From contig JAFWQU010000004.1 in the NCBI GenBank assembly GCA_017508975.1, positions 1-57,366 on the forward strand: 57,366 bases of DNA. The letters run 5' to 3'. Source of the DNA: Clostridia bacterium (lineage in GTDB: Bacteria; Bacillota; Clostridia; Christensenellales; Aristaeellaceae). Shown here in pieces: positions 2,781 through 43,967 of this stretch. Each line of letters begins with the position of its first letter. The first letter of the stretch is position 1. The notes below the pieces were generated by a model. That model made no database searches and was not told the origin of the DNA. It worked only from the letters and a program-made list of their open reading frames with translations. The translations under genes were made by a program, and so were the position numbers.

Positions 2781-2882
2781 TATGCTGATTCTCTTCTATA
2801 GAGTATGGGGATTTATGAAGGAGGTTTCGCGCCTGCGGGCGCGACCAGGGCTTTCCGATCGCCCTGGACCTTCGGGAGTGCA
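2781..2882 (-). repeat. Dispersed hairpin element, copy 1 (degenerate)
   Basis: Contains the conserved two-hairpin core at 2825-2882 in reverse orientation: stem with CGCGCC/GGCGCG around a 4-nt loop, then CCAGGGC/GCCCTGG with the invariant loop. The outer inverted repeat is only weakly recognisable on the left (CTGATTCTCTTC near 2785) and lost on the right. It lies between the FMN-reductase gene and the lipase gene, in the leader of the lipase. Confidence 0.75.
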
Positions 2883-2937
2883 CCTTTTTGGAGAGGGCGA
2901 TTGGTTAGCGAAAAGTTTGTGGCGGTTGTTGATCTGA

Positions 2938-3573
2938 TCACAGAAACAGTCTTGCGCCCAGATCAAAGGCCTTTTTGCGCTCTTCGGGGAAAACGGTTTC
3001 GTGGCGGTGCTGCTTTGCGGCCGGGTCGAACATCGTCCAGGGCCAGTCCGTTTTGCTGTAATCCTTCAGCTGCAGGGTGTCTCCGCTGATCAGGATTTCC
3101 GTGGGGCCGACGAAACGGGTCAGGGTCTGCTGGTAGTTCTGCACGAGCGGCAGGTAGGCGGTTTCCTGCGCGTTGCTGGTCATGATGAGCAGAACCGGGA
3201 TAGGCCGCTGGTTGCAGCAGGGTGTCTCCAGGTTGTAGGTCAGATTTTGGAAGATCAGCCGCTCGTACAGCGCGCGGAAGGAGGCGGTCAACTCGCTGAG
3301 GTAGTTCGGTGAGCCGATGATCAGGCCGTCCGAATCCCGGATAGCGTCCAGCACGGGCGTGAGTCCGTCGCGGCAGATGCAGTGCCCCTTGTTCTTTTCC
3401 CGCTTACAGCCGAAGCAGGAGATGCAGCCGGTATATTTCTCCAGGCGGAACAGATCAAACCGCTCGACGGAAGCTCCGGCGGATTCCGCGCCCCGGGCTG
3501 CCTCCGAGAGCAGCGTGTCGGTGTTCCAGCCCTTCCGGGGACCTGCGTTGACCACAATAATCTTCTTTCCCAT
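2938..3573 (-). CDS. NADPH-dependent FMN reductase / flavodoxin-fold family protein
   Basis: A 211-residue protein with a flavodoxin-like fold. The N-terminus IIVVNAGPRKGWNTDTLL forms the FMN phosphate loop seen in iron-sulfur flavoproteins and multimeric WrbA-like reductases. A cysteine cluster CISCFGC...GHCICRD follows, as in the Isf/NADPH-dependent FMN reductase group, where some members bind an Fe-S cluster. GLIIGSPNYLSELTASFR is the second flavin-binding block. The ATG at 3573 is preceded by GAGGTG. Likely a cytoplasmic electron-transfer or detoxification flavoprotein; partner unknown. Dispersed repeat copy 2 begins about 17 bases upstream of the start. Confidence 0.8.
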   Translation of the reverse strand: MGKKIIVVNAGPRKGWNTDTLLSEAARGAESAGASVERFDLFRLEKYTGCISCFGCKREKNKGHCICRDGLTPVLDAIRDSDGLIIGSPNYLSELTASFRALYERLIFQNLTYNLETPCCNQRPIPVLLIMTSNAQETAYLPLVQNYQQTLTRFVGPTEILISGDTLQLKDYSKTDWPWTMFDPAAKQHRHETVFPEERKKAFDLGARLFL

Positions 3574-3589
3574 GATATCACCTCATTCT

Positions 3590-3729
3590 TAGACAAATCT
3601 CAGTTTAAAATGCTTATTGTTAACAGTGAGATTTCGCGGCCTGCGGGCCGCGACCAGGGCTTTCCGATCGCCCTGGACCTTCGGATGCATGCTGTTGCTT
3701 GATTTACAGTTTTTACTTGAGAGCAGTAT
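3590..3729 (-). repeat. Dispersed hairpin element, copy 2
   Basis: Nearly complete copy in reverse orientation. The left end reads ACAAATCTCAGTTTA and the right end ACTTGAGAGCAGTAT, which are inverted repeats of each other. The core spans 3632-3686 with both hairpins. It separates two minus-strand genes and ends close to the ribosome binding site of the FMN reductase, so it lies in that gene's leader. Confidence 0.85.
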
Positions 3730-3745
3730 TATTCGAAAACGTCCT

Positions 3746-4066
3746 CTATCTCCGGATAAAGCGCTCGTCCGCCCCGAGATCGTCGCTGACAAAGCGCTCC
3801 ACGGTCATATGGAGATCATATTTCTCCCGCAGGGCCGCCAGCTGCACCATCATGGGGCTGGTGTGGTGCGCGTCGATGGCCTCCTGATCCCGCCAGCTGT
3901 CGATCAGCAGGATGGTCTCGGGGTCGTCCAGCGGCTGGAAATACTGGTAGCGAAGATTGCCCTCCTCCGCCCGGATGGCGGCGGCGATCCCGGAGAACTC
4001 CATCTCCTCGGCAAAAGCCCTGGCAGAGCCGTGAGTTCCCCTGTAATAGAGATTGACTGTGATCAT
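3746..4066 (-). CDS. Antibiotic biosynthesis monooxygenase (ABM)-domain protein, YgiN-like
   Basis: A 106-residue single-domain protein. It begins ITVNLYYRGTHGSARAFAEE and contains NLRYQYFQPLDDPETILLID and the helix SWRDQEAIDAHHTSPMM, followed by the closing strand ERF. This ferredoxin-like dimeric fold includes YgiN quinol monooxygenases and haem-degrading relatives; the His pair in AHHTS is typical. Most members of unknown substrate act on quinols or reactive small molecules. The ATG at 4066 follows GAAGGTG at proper spacing; a longer in-frame start at 4138 lacks support. Probably a separate transcription unit from the FMN reductase, since repeat copy 2 lies between them. Confidence 0.8.
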   Translation of the reverse strand: MITVNLYYRGTHGSARAFAEEMEFSGIAAAIRAEEGNLRYQYFQPLDDPETILLIDSWRDQEAIDAHHTSPMMVQLAALREKYDLHMTVERFVSDDLGADERFIRR

Positions 4067-4148
4067 GCGATTCACCTTCTTTTGGATGTCGAGGATTCCT
4101 TGCTGGTCATTGTACCAGATTTCCCATGAAAAAGCCAACCTCCAAAGC

Positions 4149-42119: not shown

Positions 42120-42185
42120 AACGCTGACTAAAAGAAACTTAGACAACAAAATTATTATAAGTTCAGGAAGGAAATTAGTCAACGC
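42120..42185 (-). promoter_or_regulatory. hydC: Inverted repeat around the hydrogenase promoter
   Basis: ACGCTGACTAA at 42121-42131 and TTAGTCAACGC at 42175-42185 are inverted copies with 9 of 11 positions matching. One arm covers the -35 box and the other lies in the leader. This suggests an operator for a redox or metabolite regulator that binds both arms; it does not look like the Rex consensus. Confidence 0.45.
42154..42182 (-). promoter_or_regulatory. hydC: Promoter of the hydrogenase operon
   Basis: On the minus strand, TTGACT at 42182-42177, 17-bp spacer and TATAAT at 42159-42154. One of the best promoters in the window. Confidence 0.85.
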
Positions 42186-42194
42186 TAATTCCAT

Positions 42195-42226
42195 CAAAAA
42201 ACCCGCGATTGCAAGGACTCGCGGGT
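42195..42226 (-). terminator. Rho-independent terminator after the P-type-ATPase-like gene
   Basis: ACCCGCGA/TCGCGGGT (8 pairs, 10-nt loop) followed on the minus strand by TTTTTTGA. It separates the upstream gene from the hydrogenase promoter. Confidence 0.9.
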
Positions 42227-42249
42227 GAATGGGGATCCCATGGAAGCGT

Positions 42250-43800
42250 CTAGCGCCGGCGGGCGGGCGGGGAGGCGAGGGTGGCCTGAACCAGGAAGGC
42301 TGAGATACCGGTCAAAAGGCCTATAATCAGCCCAAAACCGACAGCCAGCGGGTCCGCGGGGACGATCAGCAGGGTCAGCAGCAGGCACAGCAGCCAGACT
42401 GCCAGCGCCAGCGCGAAGAGACAGCGGCCCGTCGTCAGGAAGCGGTGCACGCGATAGCTGTCCGTCAGCCAGGAGATCCAGCGGGGCAGCTCCGGCAGCT
42501 CCAGCGCGATCGTCTGCGGACGGGCGGGGAGCAGCGGATACAGCGTGAACACGCCGGCCTCCGCGAGCAGCATGACGGCGCCCGCGGTCACCTTGGAGGC
42601 ATTGCTGAGCTGGGGCAGAAAAAGTCCCATCACCATCGGAATCAGGACGCCGGGGATCAGCGGGGCCAGCAGCGGCACCAGGGTTTTGAAGGGCCGCTGC
42701 AGCAGATCGATCTTCCGGCACAATACCAGGCTCACGCACAGGCTGGTCAGCGCCAGCAGCACCGGCCACTGGCTCAGGGTCAGCAGCGAGCAGATCCAGA
42801 GCAGGAGCCCGCCGATCGCGGCGGTCCACTCGAACTGCTGCTGCAGGCCGCAGTGGCGGCGCAGGGAATCGACTGCCTGGACGAAGGTCGTCTGCCGTTC
42901 CCTGCGGTCCCGGAGGGCGGTCAATTGCACAAAGCTCGACTGGTAGTCGTCCTCCGGCAGGTTGATGTCCATGCTGCGGACGGTCTCGAGGGCCCAGCGG
43001 TCGTCGGTGCGCAGCGCGGTGGCGATGCCCTTGCGCTCCAGCTGCCGGACCAGATTCAGCGCCTCCGGGTCCGGCAGGCAGCGGATGGTGGGCCGGACCG
43101 CGCCAAGATAGCAGATACGGTCCAGATGCCCGTTCACCACCTGGGCGGTGATATAGCACAGGGCGTTCGCGGGGACGTTCAGCGCCAGCCGCTCCCGGTC
43201 CTCCCGCATCATGATCCGCTCGGTGCCGTCCAGGATGTACACGCAGCACTGGGCGATGGAGGGGCCGCCCAGAAAGTAGGCGCGCTCCTCCCCGCCGTCC
43301 CGGACGATGACGCCGTTGTAGCCGTGGTAGCGGGCGACGTCGATGCGCTCGTTGCGGGACTTGAAATTGCCGGGCTGGATGCTCATGGCCAGCTCCCAGC
43401 TGGCGACCTCTGTCCGGTCGTGCAGCGGGATGCCCTCCACATGGCTGATCAGATCGTCGGTCAGTGCGACGGCGGCCGAGAGGGCGAGCGCGCCGGACTT
43501 GGAGCGGAAACGCTCCGCGGTGACGCACTCGAAGGGCAGCCAGATTTCGCCGGAGATCCGCCGCTCGCCGATCAGCAGGGAGGGCTCGACACAGATGCCC
43601 TTGAGCCTGCGGGGGAGAATGAACGGAGGATCCGCTTTCCAGTCCTCGCTCTCCCAGGCGCGGCGGGAGAGCTGCGCGCAGATCATCGGGGCGAAGAGTG
43701 CGAGCGCCAGACAGGGCGCCAGCGCCCAGGGCCAGGGCAGGACCAGCGTCAGCAAGAACGCCGCGCCGGCCAGCCAGCGCAGATTCCGCAGGAAACGCAT
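42250..43800 (-). CDS. P-type-ATPase-like membrane protein without the catalytic site
   Basis: A 516-residue protein with two N-terminal membrane helices (about 9-42), a soluble middle and about six C-terminal helices (from ~325). The middle reads like the nucleotide-binding and P domain of P-type ATPases: LHDRTEVASWELA (127-139; family GDPTE-A), GNFKSRNERIDVA (family FxSxRKRMSV), VRDGGEERAYFLGGP (family KGAPE), and LGAVRPTIRCLPDPEALNL then GIATALRTDDRWALETV (family TGD..TA). The phosphorylation motif DKTGT, the TGE actuator and GDGxND are absent. It may be a pseudoenzyme with sensing or scaffold role. The alignment is by eye, so confidence is moderate. Confidence 0.55.
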   Translation of the reverse strand: MRFLRNLRWLAGAAFLLTLVLPWPWALAPCLALALFAPMICAQLSRRAWESEDWKADPPFILPRRLKGICVEPSLLIGERRISGEIWLPFECVTAERFRSKSGALALSAAVALTDDLISHVEGIPLHDRTEVASWELAMSIQPGNFKSRNERIDVARYHGYNGVIVRDGGEERAYFLGGPSIAQCCVYILDGTERIMMREDRERLALNVPANALCYITAQVVNGHLDRICYLGAVRPTIRCLPDPEALNLVRQLERKGIATALRTDDRWALETVRSMDINLPEDDYQSSFVQLTALRDRRERQTTFVQAVDSLRRHCGLQQQFEWTAAIGGLLLWICSLLTLSQWPVLLALTSLCVSLVLCRKIDLLQRPFKTLVPLLAPLIPGVLIPMVMGLFLPQLSNASKVTAGAVMLLAEAGVFTLYPLLPARPQTIALELPELPRWISWLTDSYRVHRFLTTGRCLFALALAVWLLCLLLTLLIVPADPLAVGFGLIIGLLTGISAFLVQATLASPPARRR

Positions 43801-43857
43801 GGAATCACCCCCTGTGAGTATCTATCGTCTTCTTATTGTTTTCTTGATCCGGGAATA

Positions 43858-43967
43858 CAGCCCTCTTCAACAGGGTGTACCCGAAGGTCCGGGGCGATCG
43901 GAAAGCCGCCATTCCGGCTGCGGACCTGGTTGCGCCCGCAGGCGTGAAACTTCTTTGTGCAGATGAA
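43858..43967 (+). repeat. Dispersed hairpin element, copy 11 (expanded subfamily)
   Basis: Forward copy with core at 43881-43951. It shares the insertion of copy 10 (CCGCCATTCCGGCTGCGGAC), differing only in the new loop. The second stem has T-G and G-T wobbles instead of G-C pairs. The right end touches the stop codon of the GerMN gene; outer repeats are hard to see. Confidence 0.75.

Follow-up and report, generated by a model that had tools for sequence, protein, structure and literature searches.

The DNA analysed here, contig JAFWQU010000004.1 of a Clostridia bacterium from the family Aristaeellaceae (GenBank assembly GCA_017508975.1; 57,366 bp, positions 1 to 57,366 of the forward strand, hereafter the window), carries eleven copies of a short folded repeat of uncultured gut Clostridia that almost certainly belongs to a dispersed family resembling repetitive extragenic palindromes (REPs). 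The copies lie between genes, the pairing of a 5′ tag with the loop of the main hairpin (S1) and the stem of that hairpin (S2) both covary, and the linker between tag and stem (L1) follows the stem in letters and in length. We lean slightly towards reading it as a repeat akin to REPs and bacterial interspersed mosaic elements (BIMEs), in which a strand-specific pseudoknot-triplex fold would serve as the single-stranded DNA substrate of an enzyme.

All eleven positions listed in the first-pass annotation of the window hold, in both orientations, the exact core 15-mer GGCGATCGGAAAGCC (11 copies vs 0.24 expected; none of 100 shuffles reached 11). A covariance model, built from 87 sequences including two window copies and nine others from the same genome, after six of 93 selected sequences with an atypical hairpin 2 had been removed by hand, recovered the same 11 copies and no others in the window (E = 1.6e-13 to 6.5e-6), and returned 108 matches with E up to 0.05 on 452,516 bases of the source genome. 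The source genome (1.52 Mb, 66% complete) contains 305 exact copies of the 15-mer, 175 on the plus and 130 on the minus strand, and none of its reversed control; the supposed eleven-copy family is dispersed and multi-copy, and in fact genome-wide. Searching the whole window against Rfam gave no match, and in 30500-30950, which holds three copies, the best score was 29.7 bits against the 70 needed; the annotation's remark that no named RNA family is recognisable agrees with this absence of any match above gathering score. Neither outcome that it had named as speaking against its proposal, confinement to the window or a match to a known Rfam entry, was seen.

Read along the folded strand, the core comprises the tag CCGA, the linker AGGT, the stem CCAGGGC/GCCCTGG around the loop GATCGGAAA (hairpin 1), a second hairpin TCGCG(G)CC/GG(C)CGCGA around a CGCA loop (hairpin 2), and AAAT. 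Both hairpins and their loops are as first annotated, and the four stretches examined fold alone as DNA (z = −3.1 to −5.1): in two plain cores only the two hairpins form, leaving tag and loop free, and in two longer stretches further pairs appear. The copies at 36926 and 43881 hold 18 extra bases inside hairpin 1 that form a hairpin of their own, and in the stem variant CCAGAGGC the outer pairs extend around the 18-base insert. The window copies are as follows.

2824..2875, minus strand: core copy 1 (tag CCGA, linker, hairpin 1, hairpin 2); 15-mer and covariance model; intergenic
3631..3684, minus strand: core copy 2; both terminal arms, spanning 3591..3729 (139 bp)
23724..23777, plus strand: core copy 3; 15-mer and covariance model; between convergent genes
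25238..25289, plus strand: core copy 4; both terminal arms, spanning 25193..25328 (136 bp)
30579..30630, plus strand: core copy 5; 15-mer and covariance model; between convergent genes
30725..30779, minus strand: core copy 6; AGAGT/CCAGAGGC stem variant
30838..30889, minus strand: core copy 7; both terminal arms, spanning 30798..30934 (137 bp)
34913..34966, plus strand: core copy 8; in a divergent gap; both terminal arms, spanning 34868..35005 (138 bp)
35589..35642, plus strand: core copy 9; 15-mer and covariance model; between convergent genes
36926..36997, plus strand: core copy 10; 18-bp extra hairpin inside hairpin 1
43881..43950, plus strand: core copy 11; extra hairpin inside hairpin 1

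Three of these units share one 462-bp convergent gap (30579-30889), one on the plus and two on the minus strand, one of the latter being of the AGAGT type.

The tag CCGA very probably pairs with TCGG inside the 9-nt loop, forming a pseudoknot. Relatives also have the loop sequences GATCGCAAA and GACCGCAAA, and these occur with the tag GCGA. Among 252 distinct elements (seven of 259 candidates had no tag and were excluded, and the tag is misplaced in a few rows), tag and loop were combined as CCGA/TCGG (175), GCGA/TCGC (50), GCGA/CCGC (10), CCGA/CCGG (3) and others (14). A C-initial tag was never found with a loop tetramer ending in C in any row, and the single row joining G with G has a misplaced tag. 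One related genome (G011) holds 224 copies of the swapped GCGA..TCGC form, of which the source genome has none, together with 56 copies of the TCGG 15-mer. Formal pair counts were made on 28 of the 87 aligned sequences, hand-picked for 9-bp stems in register, since MAFFT places gaps wrongly where stem lengths differ; in these rows the tag-loop pair was CG in 14, GC in 14 and broken in none. The whole structure was paired at 98.6% (86.9% shuffled) with a covariation of 0.344 (0.132 shuffled; 0 of 500), and it also surpassed slid versions of itself in both measures; further pair types, 15 vs 14.6 shuffled, did not exceed the control.

Longer stems were seen to go with longer linkers between tag and stem: stem/linker lengths in 247 elements were 7/4 (107), 9/6 (85), 8/5 (28), 10/5 (11), 10/7 (4) and other (12). 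When the linker is read back from the loop end, its G stands over G of the stem's 5′ strand, and its T or A over A of that strand, as in AGGTTT with CCAAAGGGC, AGGGTT with GCAAGGGGC, AGGAGT with CCAGAGGGC and AGGGGT with CCAGGGGGC. This is the code of the purine-motif triplex, described in the cited sections of PMC4666352 as AAT, GGC and TAT, so the relation reads as an antiparallel purine-motif triple helix, an interpretation that we regard as probable from the letters. The direction would follow from the pseudoknot: a tag bound in the loop puts the start of the linker at the top of the stem, so that the linker must run antiparallel to the 5′ strand.

Across 44 linker-stem types the code was obeyed at 144 of 158 purine positions, compared with 0.786 (standard deviation (sd) 0.022) when partners of equal length were shuffled (0 of 5000). 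When six possible relations were scored on 38 types, the antiparallel triplex code was the highest (0.841), exceeding both shuffled partners (0.757) and permuted linker letters (0.711; 0 of 500 each), whereas a Watson-Crick linker hairpin exceeded neither control. A second set, gathered from the distant genus g270 after the rule had been framed, obeyed the code at 117 of 132 positions against 0.696 (sd 0.028; 0 of 2000). A recount of g270 that leaves out misplaced tags (35 types) gave 116 of 126, against 0.742 with free exchange and 0.825 with exchange at equal lengths (0 of 2000 each). In this genus, stem strand GGAGGGC occurs with linker GGTGG or GGAGG, T and A exchanging over the same A. 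The two sets are not fully independent, as a few g270 stem types recur at named loci in the first.

Several points weigh against this picture. Direct identity of L1 with S2 (0.673) also exceeded both shuffles (0.630 and 0.623), and a parallel code (0.689) exceeded the partner shuffle (0.611), but not the permuted linker. The window's dominant linker AGGT would give just three triples, the code always fails at the first linker base (A over G), the length coupling is loose (10/5 and other pairs occur), and some linkers mismatch their stems, such as AGAGT with CCAGGGC and AGGGAGC with AAAGGAGGC. Related copies are non-independent events, and the counts ignore the tree. Three bases (AAA) are a tight span across a 4-bp S1, tighter still for B-form DNA, and one locus (L251) crosses the tag and loop types, GCGA with CCGG. 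Finally, no mobilising enzyme was found in the relatives searched.

Taken together, the unit would consist of a 5′ tag NCGA, linker L1, stem S2 beginning with the purine-rich strand, the loop GA-UCGN-AAA and the closing strand of S2 at the 3′ end, adjoined in most genera seen by the second hairpin with its CGCA loop. The tag would pair with UCGN of the loop to form pseudoknot S1, L1 would return along the deep groove of S2, lying antiparallel to the purine strand, and G.G-C, T.A-T and A.A-T triples would lock the unit into a short triple helix. We infer that this helix would form mainly in single-stranded DNA because the code is that of the DNA purine motif, neither the sense nor the antisense orientation is preferred and G.T pairs are rare, none of which is decisive. 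An enzyme may then act on this fold as its substrate to copy or move the unit, with tag, fold and paired inverted variants serving as GTAG and hairpin do in REPs, without the usual Y1 transposase. That the unit is a DNA-level signal for an unknown enzyme seems to us just short of an even proposition. The fuller version, a natural and selected single-strand DNA pseudoknot-triplex whose three-stranded knot marks a mobile repeat for an undescribed non-Y1 enzyme, is offered tentatively.

Placement was determined with a simple gene caller of our own on the 452,516 bases of the source genome. All 11 window copies, and 103 of 104 copies in this sample, are intergenic, whereas intergenic DNA makes up 11.4%. 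Gaps holding a copy were 19 of 31 convergent, 54 of 298 co-directional and 3 of 31 divergent; within co-directional gaps, 35 copies were sense and 37 antisense. Inverted neighbours (within 260 bp, in sampled stretches of which several were chosen for holding arrays) were of the same variant in 0 of 33 cases in genome G009 (11.9 expected), 2 of 13 in G000 (5.4), 0 of 5 in G035 (2.2), 0 of 4 in G011 (0.4) and 0 of 6 in G019 (1.6); avoidance of long perfect palindromes would explain why differing variants are paired. At individual loci occupancy varies: an element was present within 450 nt after the hydrogenase-like gene (37086-38852) and its orthologues at 2 of 11 loci in 10 genomes, namely in the window and at one G011 locus.

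These features place the family close to REPs and BIMEs. As the available sections of PMC3733652 describe, REPs lie mainly between co-directional and convergent genes. High copy number, a short intergenic palindrome, location at gene ends and in convergent gaps with few copies in divergent ones, units in opposite orientation and an unpaired 5′ tag are all shared (PMC3733652, PMC8266576), as are inverted pairs of two variants, although 2 of 13 pairs in G000 were of the same variant. The repeat differs in that its NCGA tag (CCGA or GCGA rather than GTAG or CGTC) pairs with the loop, the linker mirrors the stem, a second hairpin is common, and a Y1 transposase was not found in the richest genomes. 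The tetranucleotide 5′ of a hairpin and the DNA-DNA pairing recall the guide tetranucleotides of IS200/IS605, in the sections of PMC8266576 that treat them; here, by contrast, the tag pairs with the loop of its own hairpin, and neither TnpA (Y1) nor TnpB was found in the richest genomes. Because the tests of tag and transposase gave these results, we do not file the repeat as a GTAG/CGTC REP. Intergenic elements of ~100–150 bp that are able to fold also include ERIC, BOX and Correia/NEMIS, whose likeness to this repeat is a matter of general background.

The nearest precedent for the triplex code is the TMECO/PIT motif of E. coli, which in the cited parts of PMC4666352 shares the purine-motif code (AAT, GGC, TAT), intergenic location and lack of strand bias. 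Closely spaced inverted TMECO pairs join a type A to a type B motif (5 of 5; PMC4666352), much as the inverted neighbours here nearly always join differing variants. TMECO, however, belongs to class II, in which the triplex strand comes last, at the 3′ end, and is found more often upstream of genes (PMC4666352). The present repeat follows class I in placing the triplex strand first; it has in addition a loop of 9 nt that pairs with the tag as a pseudoknot, and its stems differ widely in sequence while the triplex strand changes with them. In strand order (reverse-Hoogsteen, purine, pyrimidine) and in the GGC/AAT/TAT code the repeat corresponds to a class I triplex at the level of the sequence code. 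Its 9-nt loop and the 3-5 triples of the window copies lie outside the ITxF limits (6-15 triplets, loops of 1-6 nt; PMC4666352), and because of these limits we do not file it as an ITxF-type triplex motif. The main text of PMC4666352 contains neither 'pseudoknot' nor 'Clostridi', and the repeat and its core strings were absent from the literature searched (open-licence PMC texts).

We weighed the explanations that compete with a single-stranded DNA substrate. The main one, which we consider rather unlikely, is that the same fold acts as RNA, a transcribed pseudoknot or triple helix at gene ends that serves as a stabiliser or nuclease block and has spread because such sites tolerate it. S1, S2 and hairpin 2 covary as in structured RNA, few copies lie in divergent, promoter-bearing gaps, and the AAA strand of the loop could contact the minor groove, as happens in RNA pseudoknots. 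An RNA, however, would sit poorly with the near-equal numbers of sense and antisense copies, with the rarity of G.T (G.U) pairs in S2 (14 of 2007, counted on stems gathered with G.T allowed), with an antiparallel G.G-C/A.A-T code that is the DNA purine motif, a motif in which RNA forms triplexes poorly, and with one window copy that by eye lies beyond a terminator-like hairpin after its gene. A cis-regulatory, riboswitch-like 5′ leader is far less credible still: some g270 copies stand, by eye, directly before a start codon, but hundreds of copies in both orientations, few of them in divergent gaps, and the absence of any Rfam match argue the other way, and we rejected it because neither strand is preferred. 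A REP family of the ordinary kind, moved by a REP-associated tyrosine (RAYT, Y1) transposase yet to be found, would account for where the copies lie, how many there are, their inverted pairing as two variants and the 5′ tag (PMC3733652, in the sections cited), and the eighth-richest genome, G005 (29 copies), has one weak Y1 match. Among 60 relatives, 14 had a match to Y1_Tnp, the usual REP transposase family, but the seven richest had none (G009, G011, G000, G035, G004, G001 and G019, 66 to 94% complete, which leaves room for a missed transposase gene), none of 22 Y1 loci carries an element, and the tag is NCGA. We therefore rejected a RAYT/IS200 origin as tried here, and consider a RAYT still to be found improbable. 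TnpB (PF07282) was likewise not matched in the richest genomes; its matches were confined to 3 of 60 relatives (one over the cut-off), all without the 15-mer, and a TnpB guide RNA was also rejected.

The first-pass annotation had described a 137-bp miniature inverted-repeat transposable element (MITE) with terminal inverted repeats, and a classic MITE, in which the ATACYNNTCTCA-ended form is moved by a DDE transposase with the core as passenger, was weighed as well. Both terminal arms, ATACYNNTCTCA/TGAGANNRGTAT with at most two mismatches each, flank 4 of 11 window copies; in the source-genome sample the left end is present in 37 of 104 copies and both ends in 33, whose lengths are 136-139 bp (22), 154-157 bp (8) and 161-168 bp (3). 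The description thus holds for this subset and fails as a general one, since the remaining copies lack one or both ends, and terminal inverted repeats are not common to all members. Flanks are of several kinds, the ATACYNNTCTCA inverted ends being one and others unrelated, and in other genera the core is kept where these ends are rare. Lone ends with at most one mismatch numbered five in 452 kb, the exact one lying near a weak, degenerate core match, and 23 inverted pairs of lone ends lay 0.5-3.5 kb apart, all with two-mismatch ends; no parent transposon was identified in this 452 kb sample of the 1.52 Mb incomplete genome, and no target-site duplication was obvious by eye around the elements. 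We hold the MITE explanation to be unlikely. Because many copies carry the core in other flanks, what is conserved as a unit is the core of 52-72 nt, hairpin 1 most of all, and not the 137-bp form; the annotation was right that the core is far more conserved than the ends and that the folded part matters. A closing stem formed by the two flanks was tried and rejected: own flanks scored −9.04 against −8.32 shuffled (sd 0.25; 0 of 30; 92 of 103 copies used), only slightly better, and within family A or B not beyond shuffles.

Among relatives, the 15-mer occurred in 15 of 60 genomes (0 to 409 copies) and a looser pattern in 65 of 250 genomes of the family (0 to 421 copies, some single hits being chance-like); in a class-wide sample the looser pattern was found in none of 390 other genomes, just one of them from the same family. 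Among the matches listed, named carriers were Clostridia or Clostridiales assemblies and one labelled Ruminococcus, and sources named in titles were goat or sheep omasum and buffalo rumen. Most units of genus g270 consist of the tag and one hairpin, a hairpin-2-like sequence occurring in 3 of 40 places; stems vary widely, and all 16 places listed for genome G530 differ, which suggests that the fold is kept there without much recent copying. Plasmid records gave no match, phage records five partial matches in unannotated human-gut scaffolds, and IMG/VR three contigs with the window's form and none with one narrow pattern of the swapped form.

Whether DNA triplexes play a part in living cells has long been asked, and most of the evidence comes from work in vitro. 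Here the many natural variants in which stem and proposed third strand change together are comparative evidence of selection on such a structure, and they supply ready-made matched and mismatched test sets. The family further suggests that gut Clostridia have an activity that spreads repeats and does without the REP transposase.

Further observations concern sequences around the repeat. In the source genome a second intergenic repeat, CCCCAGCTTGCTGGGGAGATGTCGCG...CGACAGAGGGG, lies 3′ of several copies, mostly of the AGAGT type (L032, L034, L035, L036, L040, L043 and L050). Relatives contain a mosaic element in which a long, different 5′ part (...GGGCGGCAGCCCCGG) is joined to ATCGATCGGAAAGCC or GGCACTCGGAAAGCC (L053, L066 and L101; variants L095, L100 and L146); several have the usual 3′ hairpin, and the element looks as if the 3′ half of the core had been reused. 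A loose ATACYNNTCTCA left-end match lies within 70 nt upstream in 5 of 40 g270 places (L324, L328, L339, L351 and L354). The short g270 units L363-L382, most without hairpin 2 and with varied stems, lie at or overlap gene starts and ends, some abutting a stop codon or preceding a start codon (by eye, on rough gene calls). Units were also present in contigs classed as viral (L147, L148, L149 and L150-L154; IMG/VR, unverified human-gut phage scaffolds). Elsewhere in the window, the gene at 17626-19545 contains three tandem copies of ~360 bp at 18474-19533, 71-84% alike, and a run of ~21-bp repeats of Glu/Ala type at 17740-17892.

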